Shown here piece after piece: positions 6-41,138 of a stretch of 64,000 nucleotides of DNA (its first letter is position 1; the number at the start of each line of letters is the position of its first letter). Made by a program: the position numbers and the translations under genes. The stretch spans positions 45,442,880 through 45,506,879 of the forward strand of contig CM055103.1 in NCBI GenBank assembly GCA_029204225.1. The letters run 5' to 3'. This DNA is from Diphasiastrum complanatum (Eukaryota > Streptophyta > Lycopodiopsida > Lycopodiales > Lycopodiaceae). The notes under the pieces are model-generated. The model worked only from the letters and a program-made list of their open reading frames with translations, made no database searches and was not told the origin of the DNA.

Positions 6-639
6 TGTGAAATTTCACACATGAGGGAATGCCCTAAAGTGTGTGAATGATCTCCTAAGCAAGCTTATGCACAATGCTAGATTGAATTCCAAGATCTAGA
101 TAAAAAAAATAAGGCGTAGAGGCAAAGATAGATGCATATGTTGATAACCAGAGTACATACACTTGAAACAAAGTGATCCTTGAAAAAACTAAGTATAATT
201 AAGCTATTCTCCTACCAAGATTGACACCCTTGGCAGAGAGAGAATAGAGATAATTCAAAATTAGGTAGAGAGAGAAACAAGCAAATGTCACAATACAAAG
301 GTTTGACTCAAAAACTCAACATACATAATGATCATAAGGAGAAGTACATATAGAGTTTGTGGAGATCCCTCCTTGCATGCTATTGGACCGCTAATCATAG
401 CCTCTTAAATTCTATTCGACCCCTAATCATAGCCTCTTCAATTCTATTGTACCCCTAACGAAGATCTCTTGTTTCCTATTGGACCCCTTGACCAAGGCCT
501 ACTCTTTGACTTCATCACTCATAAAATTACATTATCACAAGTGTCAAAATCCTATTCATATGCCTCTCTAGCTCAAGATTGCATCATAGCTCACTTTTGG
601 CTCAATAGAGGCATTACATGTGGATTTTGCCAATTTGCC
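6..639 (-). repeat. 3' LTR, truncated
   Basis: This is homologous to 1820-2430 and begins with the palindrome TGTGAAATTTCACA. Homology stops near 639, where gag sequence begins, so about 180 bp of the LTR and all of pol were lost in one deletion. A minisatellite of roughly 33-bp units (core CCCCTAATCATAGCCTCTTC) lies at about 385-480. Confidence 0.8.
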
Positions 640-1075
640 ATTGATTTATAGATCCTCCAATACAAGCAAGCTCCCTATGAGTATCTTTCACTCTCAACAC
701 ATAATTAGTGGCACTCTCATCACTCTTTTGAGAACTTTGGAAGATTTGATTTCTAAGAGTGAGGAGCCTAGAGGTATTTTTGGCTTCATAAATAGCTTTG
801 AGAGTATCCCAAGCTTGTTTGGCCGAGTTGCAATCACCAATCTCTTTCAAAATCTCATTAGAGACATCAATCTTGATAAGGTGCAGAGCCATCCTAGCTC
901 TCTTCTTGTACGTTTGTACTTCTTGAAGGACTTGAGGCTCCTCCTCAATCCCAAGTACAATATCCATCACATCTTGGAGTGTTAGAATGGACTCCATCTT
1001 CAACTTCCAAATAGAATAATTGGAAGTGGAAAGCCTTTCACAAGGCTCCAATAGATAGAAACCCATTGAGGCCAT
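614..1075 (-). pseudogene. Copia gag N-terminal fragment
   Basis: The reading frame starts at an ATG (1075) and encodes the N-terminal part of a plant Copia gag: an MASMG start, SIWKLKMESIL, a DAWDTL-like segment (QAWDTLKAIYEA) and LTLRNQIFQ. Similar residues occur in the gag at 39684-40760. After about 145 codons the frame runs into LTR sequence and ends, so the zinc knuckle and everything downstream are missing. Gag normally forms the virus-like particle around the element RNA; this fragment is too short to do so alone. Confidence 0.85.
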
Positions 1076-1806
1076 GATCTTGTGAAGGCTTCTTGTGAAT
1101 TGGACAAAAAAGTGTTGCTCTCTCTCTTATTATAGGACTCAAAGAGGGTGTGCTACCAATTCCTATGCAAGATCTTGCAACAAATTGTGAGGAATTTCAC
1201 TAGCTCTACCAATCTCTACCAAACAAGATCAAAATCTCTTCAAATGATTGAGTATGGGCAAATTGAGGACCAAACACACTTAGCACGTGTGAAGTACACT
1301 TAGAAACCAAATTTGACTTGAATACAATGATTTTGTATGAAACAAATTGGCAAAGATCTCAAAACATTGCCTAAATCTCAAGTAGGCAGCATTGGCAAGC
1401 ATAGAAGTGTGATTTTTGATCAAACAAGCAGAAGAGAGTCATAAATAAAAGTGTCCAACCAGGTTGGGTGCCCTACCCACCTTGATTCAATTGACTATAA
1501 CTTTTGATTGGGAGATCCAATCACTATGAAGTCAATTGCTACACAAACTAGACTCAAATAGCTTTCAAACTAGCTATCAAGCATCAGATTTGGCTCACAT
1601 GATGAGACTGAATTTTGCTATCCTTCACACATGTCTGAGCAGGGAAATCCATACAATATCATAAATGTTTCAATCCTTATGATAATGAACCATTTTGATC
1701 AAGAAATGCTTGAGATAGCATGGGAGATGCAAACAAGTCTCTCTAGATCTAGATTTTCAACAAGTTTTTGGAACGTTGGATGAAACAAGCATCAAAGGCT
1801 TAGGTA
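1076..1806 (-). other. Leader (5' untranslated) region of the Copia element
   Basis: This stretch lies between gag and the primer binding site. It is similar to the leader at 40790-41138, including a CACGTGTGAA motif and the GCCCTACC tract. No coding frame was seen. Confidence 0.6.
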
Positions 1807-1819
1807 GGCTCTGATACCA
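1807..1819 (-). promoter_or_regulatory. Primer binding site, initiator tRNA-Met type
   Basis: The plus strand reads GGCTCTGATACCA, the reverse complement of TGGTATCAGAGCC, directly abutting the LTR end at 1820. This is where reverse transcription of the minus-strand transcript would be primed. Confidence 0.9.
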
Positions 1820-2606
1820 TGTGAAATTTCACATGTGTGGGGATTCTCTAAAGTTTGTGAATGATCTCCTAAGCAAGCTTATGCGCTTGTTGATGGATGC
1901 TAGATTGAATTCCAAGATCTAGATCAAAAAACTAAGGCATAGAGGCAAAGATAGATGCATATGTTGATAACCAAAGTACATACACTTGAAACAAAGTGAT
2001 CCTTGAAAAAACTAAGTAAAATTAAGCTCCTCTCCTTGGGTAGAGAGAGAGTAGAACTAATTCAAAATTGGGTAGAGAGAGAATGTTAAACAAGCAAATC
2101 TCACAATACAAAGGTTTGACTCAAAAACTTAACATACATAATGATCATAAGGATAAATACATATAGAGTTTGTGGAGATCCCTCCTTGCATGCTCTGGAC
2201 CCCTAATCATGGCCTCTTCAATTATACTCGACCCCTAATCATAGCCTCTTCAATTCTATTGGACCCCTTGACCAAGGCCGACTCTTTGACTTCATCACTC
2301 ATCAAATTACATTATCACAAGTGTCAAAACCCTATTCATATGCCTCTCCAGCTCGAGATTGCATCATAGCTCACTTTTGGCTCAATAGAGGCATTACATG
2401 TGGATTTTGCCAATTTGCAATCTATGCCAATTTTTGGCCCTATCACAACTCTACACAAAGAAGCTTGACATAAAAACTTTATGAAATTCCTAAAGCTATG
2501 ATAACCTATTTTACACATGTGGGAACATGCTCCACACATGTGAAATGTACTTCACAAACATAAAAGACATGAAATTGCCAAGCTAGATTTTTGTCAATTT
2601 TTCACA
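1820..2606 (-). repeat. 5' LTR of the Copia element
   Basis: The LTR runs from TGTGAAATTTCACA (a perfect 14-bp palindrome at the PBS side) to TTTTTCACA at 2606. It holds the same minisatellite as the left LTR, at about 2190-2275 with fewer units, and CACATGTG-type palindromes near 2515-2545. Confidence 0.8.
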
Positions 2607-6850: not shown

Positions 6851-7437
6851 GCTACATGTTTTTGGTTGACCTGCAGGGATCAACGCGAAGGAGGCCCTAG
6901 GCTCGAGCTAGCTGATCAGCTATCAGGGAGGCCCAAGCTGGCATGGAGAGATGATTATTTTTTCTTTTTTCGTAATGCAATTCTAATGGCCATAATCAGT
7001 TACTTGTTTCCTTGTTTCCGATATTTTTAAGGTAGTTGTTTAGTGGTAAACTGATTTGTTGTATTGAATTGTCATGTGCCATACCTCTCAATCCAAGCCA
7101 AGGAAGCTAGGGAATGAATGGCAACCACCACACCTATGTTGAAGAGAACCAAAGATTAGCGATTGAACCACAAGCCACCACACGGCTCATATCAAAGTGA
7201 AGCTCAAAAGGAGATGAATTCTAATGGAAGATTAAGAGTACATGGATTCATGTGATGGGGCACATGAGACCTAACAAGATCAAGATCCTAAGGCTCAAAT
7301 TCACAAAGGAGGAAGAGGAGATGGAGATCCAAGTTATCTCATTGCAAATGAGCCAAAAGGTTCCAAAAGTGATGTCTATTGTCTACTTATAGACACATGC
7401 TTTAGCTTAACTAAACATAACTATCATGAGAGATAGC
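6849..7437. other. Pre-insertion flank, no gene recognised
   Basis: Unique-looking sequence up to the target site of the LTR element that starts at 7438. No recognisable coding frame. Confidence 0.3.
7433..7437. repeat. Target-site duplication ATAGC (left)
   Basis: ATAGC directly precedes the TGTGAAA start of the left LTR and recurs at 13144-13148. Confidence 0.93.
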
Positions 7438-8302
7438 TGTGAAATTTCAGAGAAATAAAGACCAAGAATGGATCTACATCAGATCCTCAAGAGGTTTTGG
7501 AAGCTAGATTACATGATCTACTAATCAACCAATGATTAGATCTAGAATTAGATCAATTCCCCATCAAAAATCTAGCAAGAACAACAAGCAAATGATTAAA
7601 CTTGAGACCTACTGCCTTCACACGTGTGAAGAACAGTACCTGTACGGAATTACAGCAGAGAGTGAAGTACACAAGTGTTAGAAAGCAATAGAACCATAAA
7701 ATCACAACACAAATATGAGAATACTCAAGATATGCCTCCAAAACCAAGATCTTGCCTCATTGATTTCTCAAAGTGGATCCATCATGGATTAAATACAAAA
7801 ATCATCATACTCTCTCTCTAAGACACTTCCAGCACGTGTGAGACAGGTCATAGTGCTTATCCATATCCACTTTGGCTAAGATTCCATTAATTTGCCACAT
7901 CATCATTGGTGGCTAGTGTTGACCTTCTAGATTCCTACAAATTAGGAGATAGGTCCTACAATCTAGGAGATTTGACTTTTGACATGTATGAAATCTATAT
8001 ACAATGGATCTGAACTTTCTATATGATATTTCACACGTGGGAGACCACTCCTACCCATGTGATATAGCATTTTCTACCACTAGAATGGTGCCAAGTGTCA
8101 TAATACTACTAAACTAGTTTTTGGCCAATTTAGCCACTAGTTTCCAATTTAAATGATATGTACAACATTTATGATCTATCTAAATGACTTAGGCATAGAT
8201 TTCACACGTGGGAACAGGCTCCACACATGTCTAATGATGATAGGTACAAGTCATTATGGTATTTACAAGATTTAACCAAGTTAGCTTTTGCCAATTTTAA
8301 CA
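7438..8302 (-). repeat. 3' LTR, 865 bp
   Basis: It begins TGTGAAATTTCAG and ends TTTTAACA on the plus strand. It contains the 16-bp palindrome CTTCACACGTGTGAAG at 7616-7631 and further CACGTG copies near 7834 and 8035. Confidence 0.95.
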
Positions 8303-8311
8303 CTCCTCCTC
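8303..8311 (-). promoter_or_regulatory. Polypurine tract
   Basis: The minus strand reads GAGGAGGAG directly before the 3' LTR, the expected place for plus-strand priming. Confidence 0.8.
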
Positions 8312-8419
8312 AAAACTAACTTGATACATCTATGGTACATCTATTTACAACACTTAAGGCTGATCATTGCAGGTTCATAGGTGTGAAGATCAGCCAATGA
8401 GTTTGATGAAGATCCAAGA

Positions 8420-10258
8420 TCACCATATCCATGATAGTGCCTCCTTGATGTTGACTTCTTTGATGAACTTGAGAGCTTTGCACCACTTGATCACTTTTTC
8501 CATTGATTTGTTCCATCCTTGAAACATATGGTTGATCCAAAAGCTCAAAAATAGCTGAAATTCCATGAGAAAATAAAGAGTCCTTCTTGACTCATAAGGA
8601 TCACAAAGATCCAACATCATGTTACCAAGATCTCGAGAATTTGGCTCATCAACATTGGCAAGACTATGCATGCTATAATAACCAAGAGTTCGCATCATAT
8701 CTTCATGCTTGATTTCCATTCTAATCTCAGATCTAATGAGGCTAAATACTTTATTATGGAGATAAGTGTCCTTAGAGGATGATTCACTTACTCTCATAAA
8801 GAGTTTACAATTTGCCTCAATACATGAAAAAAGACAAATTTTCATACTATGAATGAGCAAATCACTCTTGCTCTTGCAAGATTCAAGAGCATACATTTGA
8901 TGAAATAACCATTTGCTTTCTAATTGATCTAAAATCAATTTGAAATCATTAAGAACATCAACTATGTTCTCAAGAGAGACACCATACTCAACTAGTATTG
9001 CTTTACTCCAACTTTGAGTTGCAAAAGTCTCACCAAAGCAAATTGATTCACCAAATGACATATGAGAAGAAAGCATAAGATCTATACCACTTGAAATGTG
9101 CTCCTCTTTCCCTTGAAATGTGAGCCATATGAGCTCAACCATGTCTCTTGATATTCTTCTTGGAATCATAACTTGAGAAGGACTCTCCTCCTCAATCCTT
9201 GGCACACTTGAACCTTGAGATGACTCCTTAAGATCAACTTCTTGGTGCTCCTCCTTGATGAAAATCCGAGACCTCCATGTCTCATAATGATCACAATAAA
9301 CATGACCATACATTGTGCACTTTCTATGATCAACAATATTACTTATGCTAGAACCATAAGTCCAAAAATCACCACAACTTGACATGATTTTTCTAATATT
9401 GAAATCAAGAACTATTTCCATCTCAATAAGGCTAACTACTTGCTTATGGATATAAGTGTCCACTTTGGATGCTTCACTTATTCTCATAAGAAGTTTACAA
9501 CTTGCCTTTAAAATTGAAAATTTACAACTTTCAACATTATGAATGAACACATCATTCTTGATCTTATTGAAACCAAAAGAAAATACATCATGAAGACATT
9601 TCCATTTCCTTGTCTTTATACTCAATGTAAGTTTACAAGGAAAACATGCTTTGCTATCTATTAAGGCATCACACTCAACTAGTATTGCCTTAATCCACAT
9701 TTGAGATACAAAAATCTCTTCAAAGCAAAATAGTTCTTCAAAAGATGTCATGAGAGCATAAATGGAACTATTTTCATTTTGTGATTGCTCCTCCTTAATT
9801 TTGCTTGGTTTCTCTTGGATCATAACAATAACTTTGAACTTATCCAAAGTTCCAAACAAAATGCTTTCCAAGAACATGAAATAAATCCAAGTGACATTCA
9901 TGAAAGAAACATCTTTCTTTGCATCTTGAACCAAACAATGCACTTCCAAATGAAAAACTTCTAGAGGTTTGAAATGTGTGGTGATGGATTTTTGAAGACA
10001 ACTCTTGTAAGTCCTTGTGAGACTCCAAGCCTCATGCATCTTTCCACAAAGGAAACACATTTCCTTAGATTTGTCCTTCTTGCCTTTGCATTTTGCACTT
10101 GAATCTCCATCCTTCACCTCGGCCCCCTTGCTTTGGTTCTCCTTGGATGGATTGGTCTTCATTTTGTAGCATCTTGAGACAAAATGATCTCTCTTGCCAC
10201 AAAGGTTGCATTTAGGATCCTTACTTGCCTCCAATAGGTTGCCACCTATTGATGCCAT
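8420..10258 (-). CDS. Gag-derived zinc-knuckle protein with duplicated module, unknown function
   Basis: The only long ORF of the young LTR element, in its sense orientation and just before the 3' LTR: 612 codons without a break. I start it at the ATG at 10258 because MASIGGNLLEA matches the gag start of the related element (MASMGFYLLEP); an open stretch upstream lacks an ATG in a better context. Residues 17-30 form a CCHC zinc knuckle (C-x2-C-x4-H-x4-C); a second Cys cluster at 68-74 is incomplete. The usual gag core between start and knuckle is missing. The rest matches no family I know. It contains two related modules, about residues 165-335 and 395-565, offset by 230, with anchors such as WIKAILVE/WSKAILVE and CKLLMRISEAS/CKLFMRVSESS. 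It may be a novel gag or RNA-binding protein, or captured host sequence. Confidence 0.75.
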   Translation of the reverse strand: MASIGGNLLEASKDPKCNLCGKRDHFVSRCYKMKTNPSKENQSKGAEVKDGDSSAKCKGKKDKSKEMCFLCGKMHEAWSLTRTYKSCLQKSITTHFKPLEVFHLEVHCLVQDAKKDVSFMNVTWIYFMFLESILFGTLDKFKVIVMIQEKPSKIKEEQSQNENSSIYALMTSFEELFCFEEIFVSQMWIKAILVECDALIDSKACFPCKLTLSIKTRKWKCLHDVFSFGFNKIKNDVFIHNVESCKFSILKASCKLLMRISEASKVDTYIHKQVVSLIEMEIVLDFNIRKIMSSCGDFWTYGSSISNIVDHRKCTMYGHVYCDHYETWRSRIFIKEEHQEVDLKESSQGSSVPRIEEESPSQVMIPRRISRDMVELIWLTFQGKEEHISSGIDLMLSSHMSFGESICFGETFATQSWSKAILVEYGVSLENIVDVLNDFKLILDQLESKWLFHQMYALESCKSKSDLLIHSMKICLFSCIEANCKLFMRVSESSSKDTYLHNKVFSLIRSEIRMEIKHEDMMRTLGYYSMHSLANVDEPNSRDLGNMMLDLCDPYESRRTLYFLMEFQLFLSFWINHMFQGWNKSMEKVIKWCKALKFIKEVNIKEALSWIW

Positions 10259-10438
10259 GATGAGGAAGTAAAACTTTGTGATATGACTTTTCAAAATGTA
10301 ATTTGTGACTCTCAAGAAACTAGATTTGAACACATTCAACAATCTAGAAGGATCTACACAAGACAAATTTTGAATCATATCTCTTTTCAACCTAGTCAAT
10401 TGGAAACTAATTTTTGCTTTGATCACTAAGACCAAAGC

Positions 10439-11680
10439 ACTCTATCAAATCACAAAAATCAGATTCAAACACCCCTATTGGACTCAACAAACACCAATGA
10501 CTCTTTCTTTTGAGAGTTGGAATGGATTTGAAAAGATTTGACTCCTAGATTTTTCTTTTCTCTTGACTAGTTCACTCAACTTTTGATATTCTTGAACAAA
10601 GGATGGGTTTTGTTTCAAATACTTGAAAATCAAACTCAATCACTTCTTTTGGACTCACTCTTGACCCAAATAATCTCACTCTTAAGATTTTGATTGAATT
10701 TGATTTGATTCGACAACAAATTAAACCACTAACTTTCACAAAAAAAAAATGATCTACACTAGATCACATAAACTTGACATGTATACTTGATTCAAACACA
10801 CAAAGATCAGATCCAATCACGCCTTTTGGAATCCTCTTGACCCAAATAATCTCACTCTTGAGATTTGGAATGGACATGAAATGGTTTGATAACAATCTAT
10901 GTCAATAATTTTTCACCAAGCTTAAAAATTAGACATCTAGAGATTCACAAAGATCCCAACCATGTATGAACACTCAAATATGGACTCCTCCTTGTTCTAT
11001 ACTCCCAATGGGATCACAACTTGACCCTCACCCTCTCACAAAGAAAGTTGAATTAGAACTTATTTGAGTTTCATACATACAATGTCAAATTGTGCTCAAA
11101 AATTGAATTCATTCACCCCTATTGGACTCCACCAAGTACCAATGACTCTACCTCTTTAGAGTTGGAATGAAATTCAAAAATGTGATACTTCTCTCTCACT
11201 AAGATATGTGCTTACAAAGAGCTAATGCCACTTAGCAAGATTTGATCACAATGAAGGAGACAATTTTTCCACCAAAGTCAAGAAATGAGTTACTAGAACT
11301 TGCCCTCTACAAAGGAAGGAACTCTTAGGATTTTTGGATCAAACACTACACATGTGACTTACACACCTCTATGACTCTCTTTCAAGCCAAACAAAACTCA
11401 ACTCTTTGAGTAGGAGTGGAACAATGTGACTTAGATCTCAAAAATCACTTCTAGAACTCTCCAACAATGCTTATCACTTGTATTGGTAGATTTTGCCTTT
11501 ATGAGTGTTTGTGCTCTAGAAATTCACTTAAGATTTCACTTGGAGGACTTATCCAAGGCTGACTTCTAGCACTTAGATGCTTCTAGTCTCAACCCTTTCA
11601 CTCTTGAACACATCTAGAGTGAAGATACAATGGATTTCAATCTCTTCCCTTGCAAATCACTCCTTAATCTATGGTTTTTG
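10439..11680 (-). repeat. Degenerate tandem repeats in the element leader
   Basis: A block with the theme CACNCCTNTTGGACTC, then AATCTCACTCTTGAGATTTGGAATGGA, recurs at about 10471, 10637, 10814, 11110 and, weaker, 11370. The units are unequal and diverged. The region lies between PBS and ORF and carries no long frame. Confidence 0.65.
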
Positions 11681-11829
11681 GCAATCTTTCACTCTCAACT
11701 TTAATGCACACCCAAAGCATATGAAGATCAGCTTTAATGTACTGTAATAAAGATTCAAATCATCTATATGATTGATCTATACCAAGAACAAATCAAAGGA
11801 ATAGAAACAATGCATTACAAAGCTTGAAA

Positions 11830-12260
11830 AATGCACTAGTTGACTAGTTTTGGGTGTATGAGGCATTAAATGCACCAAAACTGAATTTTATTGCTCATAA
11901 CAGGTTATGTACGGCCTCACACGTGTGGTAAGTACACATGAAGCCCACAAAAATATTTGGTACAAATATAATGATTCTATCTATCTATTCAAACTCGCTA
12001 CCTCAAGATTAGCTAGTTTCCAAAAAACCTGCTAGTTTGGGTGTATGAGTAAGATATAGCATCAAACTGAAAAATATAGCTCCAAAACTGGTACTGTACG
12101 TCCTCACACGTGTGAAGAGTAACCCTTCATCCCACAACCAAGTTTGATGCACAAATATCAAGGCTAACTAACTCTTCAAACTCGCCCACTCAAGATTAGT
12201 GAGTTTTCTCAAAAAACTTGCCAATCTGGGTGTTGTTTAGATCAATGCTTTAATCTCTTG
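11830..12260 (-). repeat. About 187-bp repeat units with CACACGTGTG in the leader
   Basis: Two clear units and a partial third share TTTGGGTGTATGAG, AAACTGAA and GTACG-CCTCACACGTGTG. The palindrome CACACGTGTG sits at 11918-11927 and 12105-12114, 187 bp apart. Confidence 0.65.
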
Positions 12261-12265
12261 TACTT

Positions 12266-12278
12266 GGCTCTGATACCA
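12266..12278 (-). promoter_or_regulatory. Primer binding site, initiator tRNA-Met type
   Basis: GGCTCTGATACCA on the plus strand, the reverse complement of TGGTATCAGAGCC, abuts the right LTR without a gap. Confidence 0.95.
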
Positions 12279-13143
12279 TGTGAAATTTCAGAGAAATAAA
12301 GACCAAGAATGGATCTACATCAGATCCTCAAGAGGTTTTGGAAGCTAGATTACATGATCTACTAATCAACCAATGATTAGATCTAGAATTAGATCAATTC
12401 CCCATCAAAAATCTAGCAAGAACAACAAGCAAATGATTAAACTTGAGACCTACTGCCTTCACACGTGTGAAGAACAGTACCTGTACGGAATTACAGCAGA
12501 GAGTGAAGTACACAAGTGTTAGAAAGCAATAGAACCATAAAATCACAACACAAATATGAGAATACTCAAGATATGCCTCCAAAACCAAGATCTTGCCTCA
12601 TTGATTTCTCAAAGTGGATCCATCATGGATTAAATACAAAAATCATCATACTCTCTCTCTAAGACACTTCCAGCACGTGTGAGACAGGTCATAGTGCTTA
12701 TCCATATCCACTTTGGCTAAGATTCCATTAATTTGCCACATCATCATTGGTGGCTAGTGTTGACCTTCTAGATTCCTACAAATTAGGAGATAGGTCCTAC
12801 AATCTAGGAGATTTGACTTTTGACATGTATGAAATCTATATACAATGGATCTGAACTTTCTATATGATATTTCACACGTGGGAGACCACTCCTACCCATG
12901 TGATATAGCATTTTCTACCACTAGAATGGTGCCAAGTGTCATAATACTACTAAACTAGTTTTTGGCCAATTTAGCCACTAGTTTCCAATTTAAATGATAT
13001 GTACAACATTTATGATCTATCTAAATGACTTAGGCATAGATTTCACACGTGGGAACAGGCTCCACACATGTCTAATGATGATAGGTACAAGTCATTATGG
13101 TATTTACAAGATTTAACCAAGTTAGCTTTTGCCAATTTTAACA
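12279..13143 (-). repeat. 5' LTR, 865 bp
   Basis: This is the same length as the left LTR and reads as identical to it, including the palindrome CTTCACACGTGTGAAG at 12457-12472. It should carry the promoter of the minus-strand transcript. Confidence 0.95.
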
Positions 13144-13148
13144 ATAGC
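13144..13148. repeat. Target-site duplication ATAGC (right)
   Basis: ATAGC follows the ACA end of the right LTR and matches 7433-7437. Confidence 0.93.

Positions 13149-13235: not shown

Positions 13236-13328
<93 letters not shown>
13236..13328. repeat. Microsatellite (CT)46
   Basis: An uninterrupted CT run of 93 bp. It lies about 130 bp upstream of a LINE fragment on the same strand. Confidence 0.98.
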
Positions 13329-13330
<2 letters not shown>

Positions 13331-13455
13331 CCTCAATGGCGACCCCTCCTCAGCACTCGTTGATTGGGAGCCTACCCTTCCCTTTTTAGCATTTCTCTGT
13401 TCAGTATCGAGGCTACCTCTCTTTCTTCTCTTACTATTTCAATACGCACTAGGCC

Positions 13456-13953
13456 TTGTCTAATCCTCTTGCACTCTGGCGTAAGAGGTTTGTGACTGTT
13501 CGTTACATCCCCGTGGGCAAGCTTAGATGTCTTGCTTACCGAATTGTCTCTAGATCTCTCCCTCTCCGTGCCAAGTGGCCCTTCCCATCAGATCGCCTCT
13601 GTCCAGTTTTCCAATTGGAGGCTGAATCTCTTGAGCATCTATTCTTTAATTGTCACAAGAGCCTTTGGGATGACTTTTCACAGTTGACCCCTCCACCGCT
13701 GACTATTTGCTCTATTTTGTTGGGTGATTCACAGATTGTGGACCATGCTAGTCTCACCTTTTGGCATGCCTATAGGCTATCGATACTCTTGAAGATTTGG
13801 ACTTCTCGGAACCAGCAGATCTTCGATGGCACTACGTCTCCTCTTTCGGTTGCTATGTGCTTTCAGTTTGCTCTGCATCTATTGCTGATTTGGCATAGGC
13901 TATATGACTTCCATCTCAAGTCCCATGAGGTGATGACACGTCCTAAAGTGTAG
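13456..13953 (+). pseudogene. LINE reverse-transcriptase zinc-binding (zf-RVT) fragment
   Basis: An open stretch of about 165 codons encodes the C-terminal zinc-binding region that follows RT in plant L1-type LINEs. The diagnostic part is a cysteine followed by ESLEHLFFNCHKSLWD, then an IWTSRNQQIFDG segment typical of the end of these polyproteins. There is no good ATG, and RT and endonuclease are missing, so this is a 5'-truncated copy, the usual outcome of target-primed reverse transcription. The frame ends at a stop near 13953. Confidence 0.8.
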
Positions 13954-25735: not shown

Positions 25736-26049
25736 CCGTTGAACCAATCGAATTAAGCCTATATCATCTCCAAATTATAATGAAACAAAAATGTCAAACC
25801 TAAACTTGCAATAAACGCAACTAAAGTACATATAAGGCTAATTAGCACAAATCCCCGGAAACAGGTCGAAGATGCAAAAGAGATCAATTACACATGCAGA
25901 ACCTAACAAGCTCTTCAGGTCCGATGAAAGAATCCAAAATCAAGCAGACCCTTAGCGCAGTTCATAACAATCCTCCAAATAAACCTAAAAATTCAAGTCC
26001 AGAAACTCAAACCCCAGCTAGCCAACATTCAAAAGCTGGAAGCACAAAC

Positions 26050-26343
26050 CAAAATGAGATCAAACAGAGTCGCTTGATCGACTTTGACAAAATCCGCATC
26101 CCAGGCCTTGACGTCCTCCTCCGGAATCGCCTGTTCATCACCAGATTTGTGCAGGTCCACATGATACTTACAGTATTCGATAACCTTGGCGAGTATCTTG
26201 CTTGTGACATTAGGAAGAGGGACGGCACTGTCTTTGCCGGTATCCTCGATCATATTCTTCACGGTCTGAGATTCGAAGGCGACTGCTTCATCCACCTCAA
26301 ACATATGACCATCAGAGCTCCTCAGCTCTACTTTCGAAGACAT
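26050..26343 (-). CDS. SKP1: SKP1-like protein, exon 1 (N-terminal 98 residues)
   Basis: SKP1 is the adaptor of SCF ubiquitin ligases: its N-terminal POZ fold binds CUL1 and its C-terminal helices bind F-box proteins, in cytosol and nucleus. Exon 1 starts at the ATG at 26343, giving [20 protein letters not shown], the typical plant start; the frame stays open upstream but that part is not SKP1-like. Residues 1-62 are the POZ domain ([10 protein letters not shown] near 55-64), followed by the acidic linker and [18 protein letters not shown], where the dimerisation domain starts. The exon stops at TTG|GT (26050/26049) and continues at 18502 in phase 0. The 155-residue product is intact and looks functional. 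Plants have many paralogues; which one this is cannot be told. Confidence 0.96.
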
Positions 26344-26830
26344 ATCTGCTCCGCCTGTCTTCCTTCTTCTCCTTCTCCTCCTCCTCCTCACAAAAAAAAA
26401 AGGGCGAAAGAAATGAATGGAAAAAGCAGATGGATCGGAAGGCAATATATAATAGAAAGAAAGAGGGAGCAGTAGCGAGGCGCCTGTGACCACTTGGATC
26501 TTTGCCACGTGGTATAAAGCCACGTGGATTCTTTTCAGTGGTTGGTTCAAAAACGTGGCAAAATCTTGACGGTTATGACGCATGCTAGCCAAAAGCAGAT
26601 GGTTGGGATGCCAAAAGAGGGAGTGATGATAGGGCTTGTGGGCACGTTCCTATGTGAGGCCTCACCACTTGGATTTTCGCCACGTGGAATGATTCCACGT
26701 GCAATCTTGTTAGAGGTTGATTGGAGAAACTGGCAAAGGAGAGGCCAAAAGCAGCGGTCTTTTCTAGTCTAGGCTTGGCAACTCTATTTCTGCCATGTGG
26801 ATCCTTTTCAATGGTTCGTCTTGTGTAAAT
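26344..26830 (-). promoter_or_regulatory. SKP1 upstream region with paired G-boxes
   Basis: A TATA-like stretch (TATTATATATTG on the minus strand) lies at about 26443-26454 and a CT/GA-rich leader at 26365-26400. Further upstream are four CACGTG cores: 26506-26511, 26521-26526, 26681-26686 and 26696-26701. They form two pairs, each with a 15-bp start-to-start spacing, inside a duplicated block of about 175 bp (CCACTTGGAT... and CCAAAAGCAG...). A weaker third block at 26785-26830 has GCCATGTGG. G-boxes bind bZIP and bHLH factors in plants; function here is inferred. Confidence 0.65.
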
Positions 26831-29018: not shown

Positions 29019-29030
29019 CTCCCCCTTAAT
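29019..29030 (-). promoter_or_regulatory. Polypurine tract
   Basis: The minus strand reads ATTAAGGGGGAG immediately before the TGTTAG start of the 3' LTR, the classical plant Copia configuration. Confidence 0.9.
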
Positions 29031-29835
29031 GTGGATCCTGAAAAACCTTGATCTTCAGATTTAACATATCGTTAAATCTGAGATGTTGCTCTTTTGATAG
29101 AGCCTTTGTGAAGTAATTTGTTGCCATGTAGTTTGTTTTGCAGAAATCCAATGCTACTTCCTTGCTATGCACTTTCTCTCTAAGGTAATGAGATCTGATT
29201 TCGATATGTTTGCTTCGAGAGTGAAATCTCGAATTGAGAGATAACGCTATTGTGCTTTGATTGTCACAATAGATTGTTGTAGAAAGTGTTTGTGCAAGGT
29301 TGATGTCTGCAAGCCGTTGCCTTAGCCAGATCGTCTCTTTGGTTGCATTTGTGGTAGCCATGTATTCAGATTCCGTTGATGATAATGCAACTGAGGTTTG
29401 CTTCCGGCTGTTCCATGAGATTGGGCCTTGGTTGTATAAAAATACAAATCCAAAAGTCAATTTTCTGGTGTCGACATCTCCTACCCAATCCGCATCTGTG
29501 TAGGCTTCAATGATGTTGGCAGTGTGGCTGCCTCCGTAGTAGATGTTGAGAGTTTTCGTTGCTTGGATGTACTTCATGACCTTTGTTAGTGCTTTCCAAT
29601 GAGTTAAGCCTGGATTTGACAGGAACTGGCTAAGTGTACTGATCGAATATGCAAGGTCTGGTCGTGTGCACATCATTGCGTACATCAGTGAGCCGATGAT
29701 GGATTGAAACGGGTAGCGCTTCATCTCTTTCTTTTTTGCCTCAGTTTGAGGAGACTGTTCCTTTGATAACTTTAGTCCAGAGTCAAGTGGAAAGTGACTT
29801 GGTTTGTAGTTGGCCATTCCATACTTTTCCAGCAC
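29026..29835 (-). pseudogene. Copia RT end and RNase H
   Basis: A 269-residue open stretch. It starts in the RT thumb (YGMANYKPSHFPLDSGLKLS), continues through IIGSLMYAMMCTRPDLAYSI and enters RNase H with AYTDADWVGD, SWNSRKQTSVALSSTESEYM and IYCDNQSTIAL, so the catalytic Asp-Glu-Asp positions are present. It ends with KALSKEQHLRFNDML close to the 3' LTR, the normal polyprotein end. The domain alone is well preserved, while the rest of pol is broken. Confidence 0.93.
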
Positions 29836-30576
29836 ATTGTTGAGATATCATTGCTGACTGATAAAAATCAGTGTATTGGGTCGATCTCATTGGATTTGGA
29901 TTCAGAGACAATAGTGGGATGGACCCATGTCATCATCTTGTATTCCTGGGCCAGCATGCATTTTGTATCCTTCATCAGATTCAGATTGTTACTGAATAAG
30001 AGTGTATCATCTACATAGAGAATGATGATGATGAAGTAATCTGATACAGATTTGAAGTAGACATTCAGTCTGCCAAGTTTGGAATAAAACCATTCTCTAT
30101 CAGAAATGCGTTGATCTTTTGAAATCATGACTATTTCAGCCCGTAGAGTGCCTTGTGGATTTTGCATACAAGGTGCTGATGCTTGTCGTTGAGTTCGTAT
30201 CCCTCTGGCTGTGTTATATAGATTTTCTCTTTGATGGTTCCATTGAGGAAAGTGGTTTGGACATCCATCTGGTGGACTTTAAGATCTGTTGCGGCTGCAA
30301 AGGAGAGGAGTAGGCGGATCGAAGCATGTTTGACAACTGGACTGAAGGTTCTGAATAATCAAGATCTGGAATCTGGGAAAAGCCTTTGGCGACTAGCTTG
30401 GCCTTGTAACGATTTAGCCTTCCTTCAGCGTCGTACTTCGCCCTGAATATCCATTTGCATGGAATTGGGTTTCGGTCATTTGGAAGCTCAGTGACTGTCC
30501 ATGTTTGATTCTCCATCAGATAATCAAATTCGGTGTCCATCACTGCTTTCCACTGGTCATCATCAGGAGTAGACAT
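29836..30576 (-). pseudogene. Copia reverse transcriptase, frameshifted
   Basis: From 30576 the frame gives WKAVMDTEFDYLMENQTWTV and YKAKLVAKGFSQ, the RT start. It then shifts frame near 30370 to read FSPVVKHASIRLLLSFAAA and QMDVQTTFLNGTI. A later piece at 30010-30035 carries ILYVDDTLLFSNN with the intact YVDD catalytic motif. At least two frameshifts and several stops disrupt the domain. Confidence 0.9.
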
Positions 30577-30580
30577 TGCC

Positions 30581-31051
30581 TCAGAAACAGTGTTTGGTTC
30601 CTACACATAGAGGCTGTGTGGACCTGTTCGACCTTCTGGGTTGAACTTCGGTCCTCTGATGTGGGTTGACTCGTTGAGGTTCTGACTCATTTTCGTGAGT
30701 CAGTGTCGATATTCTACAGTTGAATCTCTGGATCAAAATTTGGTTGCTCGATCCTTGGGTCGGATTTATCAGCAGCTTTTCCCTTGTGGTCGATGAACCG
30801 ATCTTCCATAAAAATGACATCTCTACTGGTGAATGCCTTCTCGGTATCCAAATTGTAGAGCTTGTATGCCTTGTGGTCTGGGGAATAGCCGATGAAAATC
30901 GTTTTCTTGTTTTTATCATCTCAGATGCTTCTGATTTATTGTGAATAAAATAGACTCTGGCAAATTTACTGTAATTATCAATAAAGGTAATGTAATATTT
31001 CGGGCCTCCTACTGAGATCACATTGAAAGTTCCACAGATGTCAGAATGCAC
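30581..31051 (-). pseudogene. Copia integrase core, internally deleted
   Basis: The frame starts with MHSDICGTFNVISVGGPKYY and ITFIDNYSKFARVYFI, the beginning of the rve core with its first Asp. After SEASEMIK it jumps, in another frame, to the C-terminal region (IFIGYSPDHKAYKLYNLDTE), so most of the catalytic core, with the remaining Asp and Glu, has been lost. The tail leads into the RT linker. Confidence 0.85.
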
Positions 31052-31113
31052 TAACTCCAGAATCTTGGTCGTTCTGTAGGAGTCTTGACAAAAGGAGTGC
31101 GTGACATCTTACC

Positions 31114-31515
31114 CTACAGACATGCATCACAGGTCATCGAACTGGTTGCATTCGATATGCTCACCCCTGTGATTGCTCCATGATGGCTTGCTTGATATAG
31201 TGCCATTGAATTCATATGACATAGTCTCTTGTGCCATGGAGTATCTAGCGAATCATCATGAGTTTGATGCACTTGATCAGCAGGCAGACGTACCTTCAAG
31301 TGATACAGATTGTCTTTTCTTCTACCTTGAGTGATCAGAGTACTAGTACTTGCATCAACAACGTTGCATGCTTCGTCTGAGAACGTTACATACATCCCTG
31401 CATCAGCTGAGTCTTGCCACTGATAGCAAGTCCTGCTGCAGTGTAGGGACAAACAAAATATCTTTGAGTCATCTGTCTCTGTCATTTGTGTTGAGCCACA
31501 GGGAACCAATACCAT
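31114..31515 (-). pseudogene. Copia GAG-pre-integrase domain
   Basis: The frame encodes NLYHLKVRLPADQVHQTHDD, then TPWHKRLCHMNSMALYQ and a CDACL zinc-binding end, the HHCC-like module before integrase. Degenerate, with frame changes toward the protease. Confidence 0.85.
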
Positions 31516-31840
31516 TCACTTGATGTTTTGATCCATCTCCAAGAACGATAAATCTTGATGAATCTGCACTTCGAAAATCAGACATGATTCGGCTTGATGT
31601 AACGAAGTATGAGGTAGCTCTTGAATCAAGGATTACCTCCTGTGTGTCAAGTGTTGACACTGCACATATGTCTGCACAGATGTAGGCGGTCGAATTACCA
31701 TGATTCAATCTTTTTTTGCCCATCTTTAAGCTCAACATAAGACGCATTATTATTGTTCTCCTATCTGGTGAGCTGATTTGTTTCTTGGGTTCAAGCGGCA
31801 GTCCATGGCTGCATGACCCTTCTTGAGACAGTGGATACAC
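31469..31840 (-). pseudogene. Copia protease, active site altered
   Basis: The frame contains VILDSRATSYFVTSSRIM where the family has D-S-G-A-T, so the glycine next to the catalytic Asp is replaced by Arg. It continues FIVLGDGSKHQVNGIGSLW. Inactive as written. Confidence 0.85.
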
Positions 31841-31902
31841 TCAATTTTCAGATTAAGCCAACACGAATCGACAATATGTCCTTCGTGTTTGCATCTCACG
31901 CA
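31798..31902 (-). pseudogene. Two tandem CCHC zinc knuckles of Copia gag
   Basis: The minus strand encodes CVRCKHEGHIVDSC and, seven residues later, CIHCLKKGHAAMDC, each a perfect C-x2-C-x4-H-x4-C knuckle that binds element RNA. Upstream gag sequence fades out by about 32100. Confidence 0.88.
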
Positions 31903-32100
31903 TGTCTTCTTGTCTCCCTTTGTTGTTTCGACATTCCTTTATTCTTCCATTTGCCTTTGCTGGTTCCTTCGGCTTGTTGATCACGATCTTGCTTTCGATC
32001 TGAGTCCCTCCCTGCTCTCGAGCCTCAACTTCTTCTCAAATCTCAACAATTGCCTTTTCAAGTGTCATTGTAGAAAAGCAAAACGAAGCAATATGAAGAG

Positions 32101-34640: not shown

Positions 34641-36536
34641 AAGGATTGGTGAATTTGGATTTAGTGGATGGGATTCAATGGAGAATGAAAGATGTTGGTG
34701 TTTTCAAGTGGAATGGAAATGAACCATTTTCTCTCAACAAGGAGAAGAAGAAGGAAGGATTCAGGAGGAATTCATTCATTCGTTCGAGTGTAGAAGAGAG
34801 CTCTTGTTTTCTTGGTTATGAACAGAGATCATTTTCTAATGTTCTGGTGATGAAGAGAGGCAGGGATTCACCTGCTCCATTCTCTTCCTTAATGATTTGC
34901 TATGATGTTTGTTGATTCTGGAGTATGATCATGGGAATACGAGACCTTTCATTCAGATCTGTGTGCTTTTGTCTTCTAGTTAAACACTGATCAGACTGTC
35001 ATTCCTCTCTTTACATGCGATGGATAACCAATCATCTCTCTCTCTCTTTTTCTGCGTTGGACAAACTTACCTCTTTCTGTCTAAATGCGTTGGACAGGCT
35101 TTTATCACTCTTTATCTGTCAACGCTGGACAGACAAACTTTGGACAGATCATTCTCCCACTCCTTTGCATTGCAACCAGTGCTCTTTGATCTTTTTCTTT
35201 TACATACCTCTCTCTCTCTCTCTCTCTCCCTCAGAGTCGCTGCCCTCCATCTCTCTCCCTCACCATTCCCTGTCCGCCTGCGCATTTGCTCTCCATTTGC
35301 CTGCAGCCACAGATCTACCCCTCTCCCTCTCTACCTCACGGCCAGCGCTACCATCTCTCCCTCATCCGATTTATTTGTTGCTATCCCTCTGTCCCCCTTA
35401 TCGTCCGATCTTTCTCTGTTTCTGTGTACGTCTCCTTCCTCCTCCAACGACCCCCCCTTCCTATATCTTCTTGTTCCCAAAAGTTTTGGTGAAAAGACGA
35501 CCGTCAAAGATAGAATGGAAACCGTAATCTGGCAACCAATTATGTGGGCTACTGAAAAAAGATGCAGAGTGACTCCAACTGTGGAAGACATGACTTTTCT
35601 GAAGGACCCTCCTTGAAATTTAAGTCAGAGCATAAGGATCTGAGGTGAAATCATTTACTTTTTAATTGTATTTTTTTGGTTTAATCATTTGGTTAAGCAT
35701 GTAGACCGAGTTTTTCAGTTATTATGAATACTAAGTATCTGTTTTTATGAATTTGAAAAAAAAAAATGGATTTATGTGCTCATACTGAATTTATAACCCA
35801 TAGTATACAATAAATGGTATGTTTTTACAGTCTAATGAATTACAAATTTACCTTCTGCTGTAAAAACTCCAAAAAATAAAGAACAATTAGATTCTGTTTT
35901 TATATTGGAATATTATACATGCTTTTCAAGAGTTAAACTTATTAAGGATTTTCAAATGGCTATAACTTCTAATCCGTAACTCGGATCCGAATAGTCCAAA
36001 AAGGTAAATTGATCTTTAAAACTCATAGAATTCAGTTAAATTGAGAAAAATGACTTTTAAAAAAAATTTATCATAAATTTCTCAGTTTGAGTGATGTGTA
36101 ATGCTTAAGAAATATACTTAGCATGATAAATCAGCTATTGCTAATCCATTGAAAAACATGGAGAAGCTATCGCTCAAAGTGGTTGAAAAACACCATTAGA
36201 GCTATATATATATATATCATATATTTCCAAAACCACATACATTATCATGATAAAACCAGTGAAAAAGATGGTCAAGCTTTCGTAGATAAATCATGGCAAT
36301 TGCATCAAAGATTGAATAAAATTAAGTTTGCTTGATTGGAGAGAATACAAGAATTAGTAAATGAAAAACATTTATATAATTGAAAAGAATATTTGAGATG
36401 GATTACTTATGAGGTGAATGGGTTCAAACTTAAGTTACTTTCTAGTATAATCTATGACAATATTTGAACTAGAAACCTAATGATTGGCTTTATAATCATA
36501 CCAAAACCCCGCTATAGTGTTATGAGAGTGAGTTAT
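34640..36536 (+). repeat. Tandem segmental duplication, copy A
   Basis: This is collinear with 36690-38670: a GA-rich start (about 34735-34830), a CT-rich block (35030-35470), CTATATCTTCTTGTTCC at 35461, AAGTCAGAG...GAGGT at about 35622-35648, and a closing block of about 390 bp at 36136-36528 that is roughly 93-95 percent alike by eye. Open frames in the CT-rich block are compositional. Nothing resembles a known protein. Confidence 0.75.
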
Positions 36537-36689
36537 ATTAATATAGTCGGTTTTAAAAACTATAGTCGGTTTTGAAGAAATTGCCCTTCTCGTAGTCGTT
36601 AGAGACGGTTACACCATGGAGTACAAGATGATTCGAAGCCATCAACCTATCAATTGACACTTGTCAATTGAACTTCAAAAGTTCTATCA

Positions 36690-38670
36690 AATGAAGTAAA
36701 TTGAATCCTATGAAGGGGATTCACTGGAAAATTACAAGAGGATGGTGTTTGGAAGTGAGAGGTTGGAAACTGCTCTCGTTCTCTCTCTCACTCACGAGGA
36801 AGAGGAAGGGAAGAAACATTGAGAAACATTCTTACATTCTGGCATTGGGAAGAGAGGAGAGTTTCTTATTTTCTGGGTGGTGAGCAGAGCATGTTCATTC
36901 AATCTCTGAGCATATAATTTTATTCCTACATATTGGTGAGCAGGGAGTGATTCACAATCTCTGAAGAGTGAGAGCATTGCTTCTTTGCTGGATGTGAGAT
37001 GATAGATCAACGCTCATTCTGATTTTCTTGAAAAGAAGATTCATGTAGACATTTTTATGGAAAGCAAGTTATTGCTAATCCTACTGCTTCTACATAAAAT
37101 ACTGGTGGAGACGGCTGCTCCTAATGCCATGACGTGCTGCGTTCTCCATCTGTCTGCACTCCTACCTACCTCTCGTCCACTGATCAATCTGCATTTTTGA
37201 ACACACACACACACGCTGCCCTCTCTCATCGCTCTTTGTCCGCCTGTGCATCTGCTCTCATCTGCCTACAGCCGCAGATCTACCCCTCTCCCTATCTCCC
37301 TCACGATCGTGCTACCTCCCTATTCTCATCACCCAATCCTTCTTCAAGGTCAGCGCTCCCTGGCACTCCCTCACCCGAACTCTCTACCTGACGCGATCTC
37401 TCTCTCTCCGCCGATCTGTCTCCCTTCTTCCTTCAGCGACCCCTCCTTCCTATATCTTCTTGTTCCAAAATTTTTAGTGAAAGAGATGACCCGAAAAGTG
37501 ACAATGGGAACCACCAGTGTGAAAGGAATTTTGTGCATTTACAGAAAATATTCAAAGTGACTTTGAAACAATGAAGATATTAAAGAACCGGATGCCTGTT
37601 GAAGAAAAGACCTTAGCCTATGGACAGTCTCTTGAAACTTAAGTCAGAGTAAAAAGACTGAGGTAATTTTCATTGTTCATCTCTGTTTTTACTCATGTCC
37701 TAAATCACTTCATAATACAAATAGAAGATGAGTAAATGTTATTCTGTGTATTATTTCAATGACTATCTGGAATTCAAGAATGGGAATATGATTAGTCTAT
37801 GTATACTAAATGTGTAATGCAGTAAGAGATGACTAACGGATTTACCTTCTGCAGTAAGAATTATAGTTTTACAGTCAGCAATAATTCACTGATTTACTGT
37901 CTGAGGTAAAAAATAGTCAACATAAAATAGATTTCAGTCTCTGTTTTGGTTTACAAAATATGCTTTATGCTTAACAAACATAATGGAAATTTACAAGCAC
38001 AATAAATGTTATTCTGTGTATTATTTCAATGGCTATGAATGGAATTCAAGAATGGGAATCTGATTAGTCTATGTATACTAAATGTGTAATGCAATAAGAG
38101 ATGACTAACGGATTTACCTTCTGCAGTAAGAATTATAGTTTTACAGTCAGTAATAATTCACTGATTTACTGTCTGAGGTAAAAAACAGTCAACATAAAAT
38201 AGATTTCAGTCTCTATTTTGGTTTACAGAATATGCTCTATGCTTAACAAACATAATGGCAATTTACAAGCACAATAAATCCCATATTGCTAATCCATTGA
38301 AAAACATTGAAAAGCTACCGCTCAAAGTGGTTGAAAAACACCATTAGAGCTATATATATATTATATATTTCCAAAACCACATACATTATCATGATAAAAC
38401 CATTGAAAAAGATGGTCAAGCTTTCGTAGATAGATCATGACAATTGCATCAAAGATCGAATCAAATTAAGTTTGCTTGATTGGAGAGAACACAAGAATTA
38501 GTAAATGAAAAATATTTATATCATTGAAAAGAATATTTGAGATGGATTACTTATGAGGTGAATGGGTTCAAACTTAAGTTACCTTCTAGTATAATCTATG
38601 GCAATATCCGAACTAGAAACCCAATGACTGGCTTCATAATCATACAAAACCCCGCTATAGTGTTATGAAT
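36690..38670 (+). repeat. Tandem segmental duplication, copy B
   Basis: Second copy of the unit at 34640-36536, offset by about 1965-1990 bp in its first half and 2148 bp at its end. The extra length is explained by an internal 270-bp tandem duplication at 37737-38278. The minus-strand Copia element begins at its right edge. Confidence 0.75.
37737..38278. repeat. 270-bp tandem duplication
   Basis: TGTTATTCTGTGTATTATTT starts at 37737 and again at 38007. The two copies run to about 38006 and 38278 and differ at only a few positions, so this duplication is younger than the segmental one around it. Confidence 0.92.
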
Positions 38671-38978
38671 ACTGTTAAGTAACACACCAAACGTACCACA
38701 CCACCTCCATCACTTCTAAGAATCTTGATTTTGTATGAAAATTGTTTTTCAACTAGAGCTTTGAACTTTAGGAAATAGTCAAATACCTTAGACTTTGAAG
38801 CTAGAAGATATACCCAAGTAAATCTAGTGAAATCATCAATGAAAGTTACAAAGCAAGTAGCATCACCCTTGCTCTTTGAAGATGAGAAGTGCACATCCGA
38901 GTGTATGAGCTCTAATGGATGTGTAGTCTTGATAGATGACTTTGAAAAAGGCTTCTTATGAGACTTAGATATGGCACA
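38655..38978 (-). pseudogene. Copia integrase core, N-terminal part
   Basis: The frame reads KTTHPLELIHSDVHFSSSKS, TCFVTFIDDFTRFTWVYLL and YKIKILRSDGGG: the first two catalytic aspartates of the DDE triad are visible. The domain ends at the truncation near 38655, before the Glu. Confidence 0.9.
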
Positions 38979-39300
38979 AGCCTCTAAAAAGTTGAAAGTA
39001 GAGTTTGCACATGATCATTGCCTTGTGAAGGATATGAATCAGAAGTTCAAGGTCATTGCGAATGGTACAAGAGAGCCCAACCAAATTGTACATGTTGAAT
39101 GCCACAAGCAACATATCTCATCCATTCCATCGCAAACTGAACTGTGGCATAATAGACTTGGTCATTTGAACCTAGGAAGCCTCAGTTTGATGAGGAAATG
39201 TCATGTGCCAAATTTAAGCAATTAGCAATTACAATGGAAGTAAAGCTAAGAGCAAGAAAAGTACAAAGCATTCAAGATAGCATATCCATAGAAAGCTAGA
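38979..39300 (+). pseudogene. Plus-strand Copia GAG-pre-integrase fragment inserted in minus-strand Copia
   Basis: In the opposite strand to its surroundings, 38985-39222 encodes HDHCLVKDMNQKFKVIANGT, then ELWHNRLGHLNLGSLSLM, the GAG-pre-integrase signature of a different Copia lineage. The flanking minus-strand frames would join across it (GDPC before, ACAISKSHKKPFSKSS after). Only about 80 codons are present, with no LTRs. Confidence 0.85.
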
Positions 39301-39702
39301 AACACAAGGATCTCCATAGAATGAGATAAGGTTAGGCAAGCCAATAACTTTGGCTTTCTTGACCATGGACACCATAGAACTATGGTTAGGATGCCCCAAC
39401 CTTCTATGCCATAGTTCCTCCAAAGACATATGAGAAGCAAAAGCACTATCACAAAAGTTAGCATATTCTTTGGGATCAAGTTTGTAGATTCCACCATATC
39501 TAGACCCACATGCAAGGATCTCATCATGCTTCTTGATTGTACATGTATCAACATTGAAATTCACATCTAGTCCACTATCAAACAATTGTCCAACACTAAT
39601 AAGATTTTTTGTTAACTTGGGAACAAAAAGTACATTAGACAGAGAAAGAACTTTTGAGGAAGAAAGCTTTAAGGGAATGGTCCCTATGCCTTCATAGCAC
39701 AC
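39246..39702 (-). pseudogene. Copia protease end and GAG-pre-integrase
   Basis: The minus-strand frame gives LSNVLFVPKLTKNLISVGQL, typical of the protease end, and EELWHRRLGHPNHSSM with GLPNLISFYGDPC, the GAG-pre-integrase. Its start overlaps the end of the gag frame in a different phase, so a single frameshift near 39690 separates them. Confidence 0.92.
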
Positions 39703-40760
39703 TCATGATCATTTGTTGTGTAGATGGACTTCTTGGCTCCTTCATAAGGTGACATAGATGAAAAAGAATGCTTGGAGCTACATATATGTGAAGAAGCTCC
39801 ACTGTCGATATACCACGAACCATCCTTCTTGAAAGGTGATGAAGAAAAACTCGAGACCATAAGAGATCCCTCTCCATCACTTGCATGAGCATCTTCCTTC
39901 TCGTCATTAGAAACGTTGGCTTGCTTGAATTGACTCTTCTTCTTGAAGCAATTGGTGGCATAATGCCCCTTCTTGCCACAAAAGAAACACTTGATGTTTT
40001 TCTTCTTCTTCTTGGATGTGGAAGCTTGAGAGGACTCATCCTCTTCTCCTTTCTCCTTGGAAATAAGATTGTTCTTGCTTGAAGAGGATTGGTGTTGATT
40101 CTTACTGCTTGTCTTGTACTTGTCTTTGGTAAACAGAGCTTCACCATCAATGTTGAGAGACAGTCTCTCCATTTTCAAGAGTTTATACTTTTGTCTTGAT
40201 TCTTCAGAAATAAGCGCACTTTGGAGTGCTTCCAAACTTGGTAGCTCCTCCTTAATGGCATAACTCTGAACAAGGTTGTCATATTCCTCCTTTAGCCCAT
40301 TAAGTATGACTTGAACAAGTTCATTTTGGTTGATGGAGTCTCCTATGCATGACAATTCTCTATGGAGGTCTTTAACTCTCATTACATAAGCTGAAGCACA
40401 TTCATCACTTCTCTGTACACTTTGAAAAATTTGGTTTCTTAGTGTTAGAAGTCTAGAAGTATTATTTGCCTCATAGATAGACTTGAGAGTATCCCAAGCA
40501 TCTTTGGCATTAGTACAAGCACCAGTTTCTCTTAAGATGTCATTTGAGACATTCATCTTAATATAATGCAGAGCCATCCTAGCTCTCTTTTGTTACTTTG
40601 GAATTTCTTGAGGAATTTGTGGTTCTTCTTCAATGCCAAGTACAATATCCATCACATCTTGTAGTATTAAGACAGATTCCATCCTAACCTTCCAAATTGA
40701 GTAATTGGAGGTTGACAATCTTTCACTTGCTTCTAATAGAAAGACACCCATTAAAGTCAT
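39684..40760 (-). pseudogene. Copia gag and start of protease, one internal stop
   Basis: The probable start is the ATG at 40760 (MTLMGVFLLEASERLSTSNY). The frame carries SIWKVRMESVLILQDVMDIV and reaches an in-frame TAA at about 40594, then reads on in the same frame from KRARMALHYIKMNVSNDIL to LTLRNQIFQSVQRS. A CCHC knuckle, CFFCGKKGHYATNC, is at 39989-39948. The protease start WYIDSGASSHIC, with the intact DSGA, is at about 39815. One nonsense codon and one frameshift are therefore the only clear lesions in gag-protease, making this the least decayed Copia gag here. Confidence 0.93.
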
Positions 40761-41138
40761 AAAGAATGATGGAAATAAAACAAGATGGATGTCTCACTAA
40801 CTTGACAATCTCTCTAAAACAAGATTTGAATCATCAAAAAAGATGAAGTATGGAAAAAGTTACGGTTCTCTGAATTTCACACGTGTGAAATACTCCAAAA
40901 ATGTCAAATTGACTCAAATACAATCTATTTGTATGAAACAATTTGCCTAGAACCTATAAATTTTGTCTAAATCACATATAGATGAGATTGTTCAGCTTCT
41001 GGATGATTTTTGTGATCATTCAAGCAATAAATGACATGTACACATGATTTGCCACAGGTCTAGGCGCCCTACCTACAACTCTTCAAAATCTTATAACTTC
41101 TGATTGGCTTATCCAACTGTCATGATTCAAATTGCATC
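40761..41138 (-). other. Copia leader region
   Basis: Similar to 1201-1560. It contains the 18-bp palindrome ATTTCACACGTGTGAAAT at about 40873-40890 and GCGCCCTACC near 41074. The PBS and LTR expected further right are replaced by the plus-strand fragment. Confidence 0.65.

Follow-up and report, generated by a model that had tools for sequence, protein, structure and literature searches.

A recently inserted, non-autonomous Copia-type element of Diphasiastrum complanatum whose single open reading frame is probably a decayed gag-pol

How does a long terminal repeat (LTR) retrotransposon with identical LTRs come to carry one long open reading frame (ORF) in the place of pol? The question is raised by the element at positions 7438-13143 (5,706 bp, minus strand) of a 64,000-nucleotide stretch of Diphasiastrum complanatum DNA (assembly GCA_029204225.1, contig CM055103.1, positions 45,442,880 to 45,506,879), which we call the window. 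The evidence points to a recently inserted, non-autonomous Copia-type element whose ORF is probably a reduced and decayed gag-pol. The element is complete, with the following parts:

7433-7437: left copy of the target site duplication ATAGC
7438-8302, minus strand: 3' LTR, 865 bp
8303-8316, minus strand: polypurine tract (PPT) GTTTTGAGGAGGAG, adjoining the 3' LTR
8420-10258, minus strand: 612-codon ORF including its stop (codons from 10258 to 8423, stop at 8420-8422)
10259-12278, minus strand: leader of 2,020 nt, with 20 upstream ATGs and no long ORF
12266-12278, minus strand: primer-binding site (PBS) TGGTATCAGAGCC, adjoining the 5' LTR
12279-13143, minus strand: 5' LTR, 865 bp
13144-13148: right copy of the target site duplication ATAGC

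Base-by-base alignment of the two LTRs gives 0 differences in 865 positions. The initial annotation had described identical LTRs, a perfect target duplication and an intact PBS and PPT, and all of this is borne out; its coordinates are exact, and the minus strand can be added to them. The apparently recent insertion that it proposed is supported. We take the PBS to be of the tRNA-Met type, and a TATATA motif lies at LTR position 302. The 612-codon ORF sits within a 673-codon stop-free frame that starts at 10441. We considered a chance ORF and rejected it: when the interior was randomised 500 times with a first-order Markov model, the longest run without a stop across the six frames was 99 codons on average and never exceeded 173. 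The remaining five frames across the ORF contain 29 to 68 stops.

No Pfam model reaches its cut-off on the ORF, a PDB sequence search with it returns 0 hits, and scans of viral contigs with the ORF, the gag of element B, a reverse transcriptase (RT) piece of Copia C and a Copia RT motif found no confirmed relative. Searching the PDB with an RT piece from the window gave a single hit at E = 0.86, taken as chance. Comparison within the window was more informative, and involved these Copia neighbours:

6-2421, minus strand: element A, an older deletion derivative
29029-31938, minus strand: Copia C, whose frameshifted pol matches RVT_2 (E = 7.8e-23 for one piece) and, weakly, an integrase core
38655-40793, minus strand: element B, with Copia gag, Pol_BBD, gag_pre-integrs and a partial integrase core

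Against these the following segments can be distinguished in the ORF:

10223-10258, minus strand: gag-start-like first 12 codons, by DNA alignment to the gag start of element A
10169-10210, minus strand: CCHC zinc knuckle, residues 17-30
9815-10033, minus strand: degenerate integrase segment, residues 76-148
9230-9796, minus strand: duplicated unit 1, residues 155-343
9647-9706, minus strand: weak RT-start-like stretch in unit 1, residues 185-204
8540-9109, minus strand: duplicated unit 2, residues 384-573
8900-9019, minus strand: weak RT-start-like stretch in unit 2, residues 414-453, not significant alone

The start of the ORF is gag-like. Its ATG region aligns ATG-to-ATG with the gag start of A at the DNA level with a score of 36, which none of 200 nulls reaches, be it over the whole leader (maximum 35) or over the local stretch (maximum 29). 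The alignment to the gag start of B is weaker (score 28, reached by 3 of 200 nulls), and the residues LLEAS of the ORF start are found there as well. A gag start common to the elements at 6 and 38655, as had been proposed, is therefore confirmed, less strongly for B. The zinc knuckle matches Pfam zf-CCHC_2 at E = 0.0028 in the N-terminal piece, below the cut-off of that model, and scores 8.0-8.1 bits against a Copia nucleocapsid profile, where the best of 200 shuffles scores 1.9 (in these profile controls, values were obtained from those shuffles that HMMER scored). Residues 13-60 score 75 against the nucleocapsid of B, a value reached in 0 of 3000 shuffles (maximum 73), and hhalign of the first 160 residues against nucleocapsid gives E = 0.00036, a figure that has no shuffle control. 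Pfam finds a gag capsid domain in A and B and none in the ORF, in which residues 1-12 run directly into the nucleocapsid, as if the gag capsid region had been lost in frame.

Residues 76-148 match integrase in tblastn (E = 1e-4) and score 99 against the integrase fragment of B, compared with a maximum of 65 in 5,000 shuffles of the ORF. When the 265 segments in the window that have 60 residues or more are ranked with this fragment as query, the ORF comes second, after the query itself; the genuine integrase of Copia C scores 97, just below it, and the remaining five interior frames score 31-41. The hhalign comparison of the first 160 residues with integrase gives E = 0.0034, again with no shuffle control. 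HSDV of B reads HLEV in the ORF and the stretch preceding TWVY is lost; judged by the catalytic motif, the first catalytic Asp is gone and the segment is presumably dead. By sequence likeness, this segment is a decayed integrase, nearest to the Copia lineage of the window. The order of gag start, nucleocapsid and integrase is that of Copia gag-pol, and the gag start, knuckle and degenerate integrase together indicate that the element arose from a gag-pol Copia that lost some parts while others decayed. The initial annotation had reported no pol domain and a long ORF in place of pol. This holds in that no Pfam model is found at its cut-off and no usable enzyme is encoded; it needs correction in that a decayed integrase is present and the ORF is not an unrelated gene.

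Beyond the integrase segment the ORF contains an internal duplication. Units 1 and 2 align in register across 567 columns with a 3-nt gap as the only gap. A joint profile of both units, compared by hhalign with the N-terminal part of RT, scores 22.7 and beats all 40 column shuffles (maximum 18.2), and the match is located at a W..AI..E stretch. The profiles for this comparison were made from eight Copia ORFs out of ten contigs found by motif. On this profile evidence the duplicated stretch is likely, though not proven, to be derived from RT. In addition, residues 316-378 resemble a stretch of Copia C (score 61, maximum 52 in 300 shuffles), a likeness for which we have no explanation.

The duplication is much older than the insertion. 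Between the units, about 41% of sites are different, which corresponds to a Jukes-Cantor distance of about 0.57, whereas the LTR distance lies below about 0.0035 by the rule of three on 0 of 865. If the rates are alike, the duplication would be at least 100 times older than the insertion, and the element was apparently already defective when it transposed later. Neither of two alignments of the units clearly shows amino-acid constraint. Differences at codon positions 1, 2 and 3 number 84, 78 and 67 over 187 codons, with no excess at the third position. On the DNA-led alignment (187 codons) the NG86 method gives a nonsynonymous divergence (dN) of 0.62 and a synonymous divergence (dS) of 0.47; on the protein-led alignment (176 codons) the values are 0.53 and 0.58 by NG86 and 0.49 and 0.38 by LWL85, and thus vary with the alignment used. 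Amino acids are identical at 58 of 188 codons. A model that rejects only stops gives mean identities of 52.7-55.9, and 130-367 of 1000 runs are as high as 58. The units contain 0 stops where 9.6 are expected, and none of 3000 runs is stop-free (0-2 of 4000 in another set of runs). As a small control, the diverged repeats of the leader show a gap that would break a frame, being no multiple of 3, in two of three usable pairs; one overlapping repeat pair that aligned onto itself was left out. The frame thus seems to have stayed open while the amino acids drifted.

Several results weigh against this reading and are given here together. A general integrase profile, built from six Copia integrases taken from other contigs, misses the segment (-3.0 bits, or -1.2 with the window fragments added, where the best shuffles score 4.3 and 4.5), although its best alignment to the ORF still falls in the same register. 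The match to the integrases of the window combined with this miss makes the Copia lineage of the window itself the nearest to the segment. At the DNA level the ORF does not match the integrase of B, 54 of 200 nulls being equally good. For the duplicated stretch, the RT profile, from the same eight ORFs, scores 1.6 and 0.9 bits in hmmsearch, not above shuffles (up to 2.0), and one RT from the window scores 42 against the ORF, with 12 of 300 shuffles equally good. A wider alignment of the units shows a 1-nt gap at column 558, and the stop test loses force when restricted to the 112 codons that are best conserved, with 4.6 stops expected and 30 of 3000 runs stop-free. The mean BLOSUM similarity of the units lies a little higher than the no-constraint model gives (8-90 of 1000 runs as high), leaving room for a weak amino-acid constraint. 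With 20 ATGs upstream of it, the ORF is not certain to be translated, and the element is known from a single copy, with no sibling copy or helper in view.

The most probable alternative is that the product of the ORF is a functional accessory protein that evolves fast, which might bind RNA through its zinc knuckle and aid the entry of RNA into helper particles or interfere with the helper, the two halves having diversified. The presence of the knuckle, the open frame, a dN at least equal to dS between the halves in most estimates and the slight excess of conservative changes all fit this idea. An identity of 58 of 188 codons is nevertheless the level produced by rejecting stops alone, and a single-sequence AlphaFold prediction of the ORF is unfolded (pLDDT 33.4), which is weak evidence as it was made without an alignment. 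We regard an accessory protein as possible but doubtful. That residues 155-612, the duplicated two thirds of the ORF, are a captured piece of a host gene or another non-pol sequence fused to a gag-integrase remnant is less plausible and in our judgement improbable: beyond the knuckle the ORF has no significant Pfam or PDB match and the RT likeness is weak, but the joint profile of the units exceeds every column shuffle at the RT start, the RT-like signal follows the integrase, which is the place of RT in Copia, and the Copia C-like stretch lies in this part.

The initial annotation had itself named, as a finding that would count against a new lineage, a deletion product of a full-length element that carries pol. 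Loss and decay from a gag-pol Copia agrees with this in part, but the decay is old. A recent one-step deletion without a history of its own would be consistent with residues 1-12 leading straight into the nucleocapsid; the strong degeneration of the remaining integrase, with no DNA-level likeness to B, and the age of the internal duplication relative to unchanged LTRs make it highly unlikely. We give just as little weight to gene conversion or assembly error as the source of the LTR identity, with an insertion that is not recent. The region is available as a single assembled copy, but the target duplication is perfect, and the PBS and PPT adjoin the LTRs. Taken together, a decayed gag-pol origin combined with mobilisation in trans is very likely, while for a frame kept open without amino-acid constraint we see the chances as about even.

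The neighbours bear on what might have mobilised the element. In A, the N-terminal gag domain (Pfam Retrotran_gag_2, E = 3.8e-18) runs into the LTR, and the LTR pair is 86.7% identical over 466 columns and 91.4% over 222 columns. B has gag, protease-region and pre-integrase domains and then part of the integrase, within which it is apparently cut off at about 38658. Neither structure is that of the element, and as they stand A, with only N-terminal gag, and B, which ends within integrase, cannot be the helper. A shares with the element a 12-base PBS core (1808-1819) and its LTR ends, TGAAATTTCACA at one end and AAATTGGCAAAA near the other. These palindromes were compared:

12457-12472 (5' LTR), also 7616-7631: 16-bp perfect palindrome CTTCACACGTGTGAAG
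12104-12115: 12-bp palindrome TCACACGTGTGA in the leader, with a one-mismatch copy at 11917

The perfect TCACACGTGTGA occurs in the element at 7618, 12104 and 12459 and in the leader of B at 40877, within an 18-bp perfect palindrome ATTTCACACGTGTGAAAT (40874-40891), and the leader of A has a degenerate form. Shared palindromes, another feature of the initial annotation, are thus present, and there is support for the non-autonomy of the element and for its relationship to the neighbouring Copia elements. The element also holds 10 of the 22 copies of CACGTG in the window, at element positions 93, 264, 465 and 677 in each LTR and at 1032 and 1219, with spacings of 171, 201, 212, 355 and 187 bases. 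The palindromes and CACGTG boxes could be dimer or packaging signals, promoter boxes or traces of an old repeat of about 190 bp. The shared PBS core and LTR ends, the gag start in common with A and the palindrome in common with B suggest that the helper is a relative of A and B that is still intact, and that may mobilise a lineage of such elements in trans.

The leader contains diverged repeats (12032-12233 with 11844-12044, and several more between 10445 and 11185). The predicted fold of its first 419 nt is near that of shuffles (z -1.77; 6 of 100 shuffles at least as stable), and we therefore claim no RNA structure. ARAGORN and Rfam at gathering thresholds report nothing in the 64-kb window. 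With 20 upstream ATGs here and 12 in the 744-nt leader of A, the lineage may use splicing, shunting or reinitiation.

A mechanism consistent with a decayed gag-pol mobilised in trans would begin with transcription from the LTR promoter. The RNA would be packaged, primed by tRNA-Met, copied and integrated with the Gag and Pol proteins that a still intact relative of A and B supplies, the ORF contributing no enzyme. The frame could be kept open since translating through it benefits the RNA, as an escape from decay, or since the product acts in cis or binds RNA, rather than for a particular fold. We put forward only tentatively that the open frame itself, and not the protein, is selected: in a pol-less Copia lineage, translation to near the 3' end might spare the RNA from decay or silencing or favour packaging in cis, the old gag-pol serving as translatable filler.

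BARE-2 keeps pol, as do elements of the Tos17 type, whereas the pol of this element is decayed, with no intact pol domain. The interiors of LARDs are not known to be coding, unlike the 612-codon frame found here, which is far beyond chance. The LTRs, target duplication, PBS and PPT are those of a Copia element, and the gag start and integrase segment match Copia elements of the window. The order protease, integrase, RT and RNase H is not present with intact domains, only a degenerate integrase and a weak RT-like signal; the element is therefore a Copia derivative and not an intact member.

The described non-autonomous LTR classes of plants are TRIM, LARD, TR-GAG and BARE-2 (PMC6696364, PMC10552921). 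LARDs exceed 4 kb and TRIMs range from a few hundred bases to 4 kb (PMC6696364); at 5,706 bp the element is above the TRIM limit, and it resembles LARDs in size and in keeping LTRs and cis-acting parts without usable enzymes. The Arabidopsis TR-GAG AT5TE33540 (ATCOPIA63) has a 562-residue GAG ORF, moved in ddm1 and is thought to move with the proteins of an intact relative (PMC8704663). Our element is likewise Copia-related, with two LTRs and one ORF of similar length; unlike TR-GAG, which encodes GAG, its ORF has no Pfam gag capsid domain but a gag start, a knuckle below the cut-off and integrase remnants. Like BARE-2 and rice Tos17, which is active without gag, it is a Copia element that lacks usable gag and depends on others (PMC10552921, PMC3977881). 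The element thus fits TR-GAG, BARE-2, LARD and TRIM imperfectly and is a variant of known non-autonomous elements. Among the titles listed from open-licence literature, none describes a non-autonomous LTR element whose long frame is open yet unconstrained, which is not proof that no such element has been published.

Other features of the window were recorded alongside. A perfect (CT)46 array lies 93 bp beyond the element (13236-13328, plus strand), and a LINE-like zf-RVT ORF at 13453-13950 (plus strand) has E = 3.4e-5, below the cut-off of the model. Two repeats lie at 36207-38650: the direct copies 36207-36506 and 38351-38650 are 94% alike, and the tandem copies 37768-38007 and 38040-38279 are 97% alike. 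A broken Gypsy-like element with RVT_1 and RT_RNaseH_2 (62939-63505, plus strand) runs to the end of the window. By the look of their translations, we take the ORF at 52736-53458 (plus strand) to be oleosin-like and that at 26032-26649 (minus strand) to be SKP1-like.

Three kinds of non-autonomous LTR element are usually distinguished, according to whether gag, pol or no coding sequence at all is retained. The present element appears to be recently mobile and old as a defective element, and its long frame seems to have stayed open without visible amino-acid constraint. If sibling copies agree, it would offer a clean system for asking whether being translated, and not what is translated, decides the survival and movement of retrotransposon RNA.

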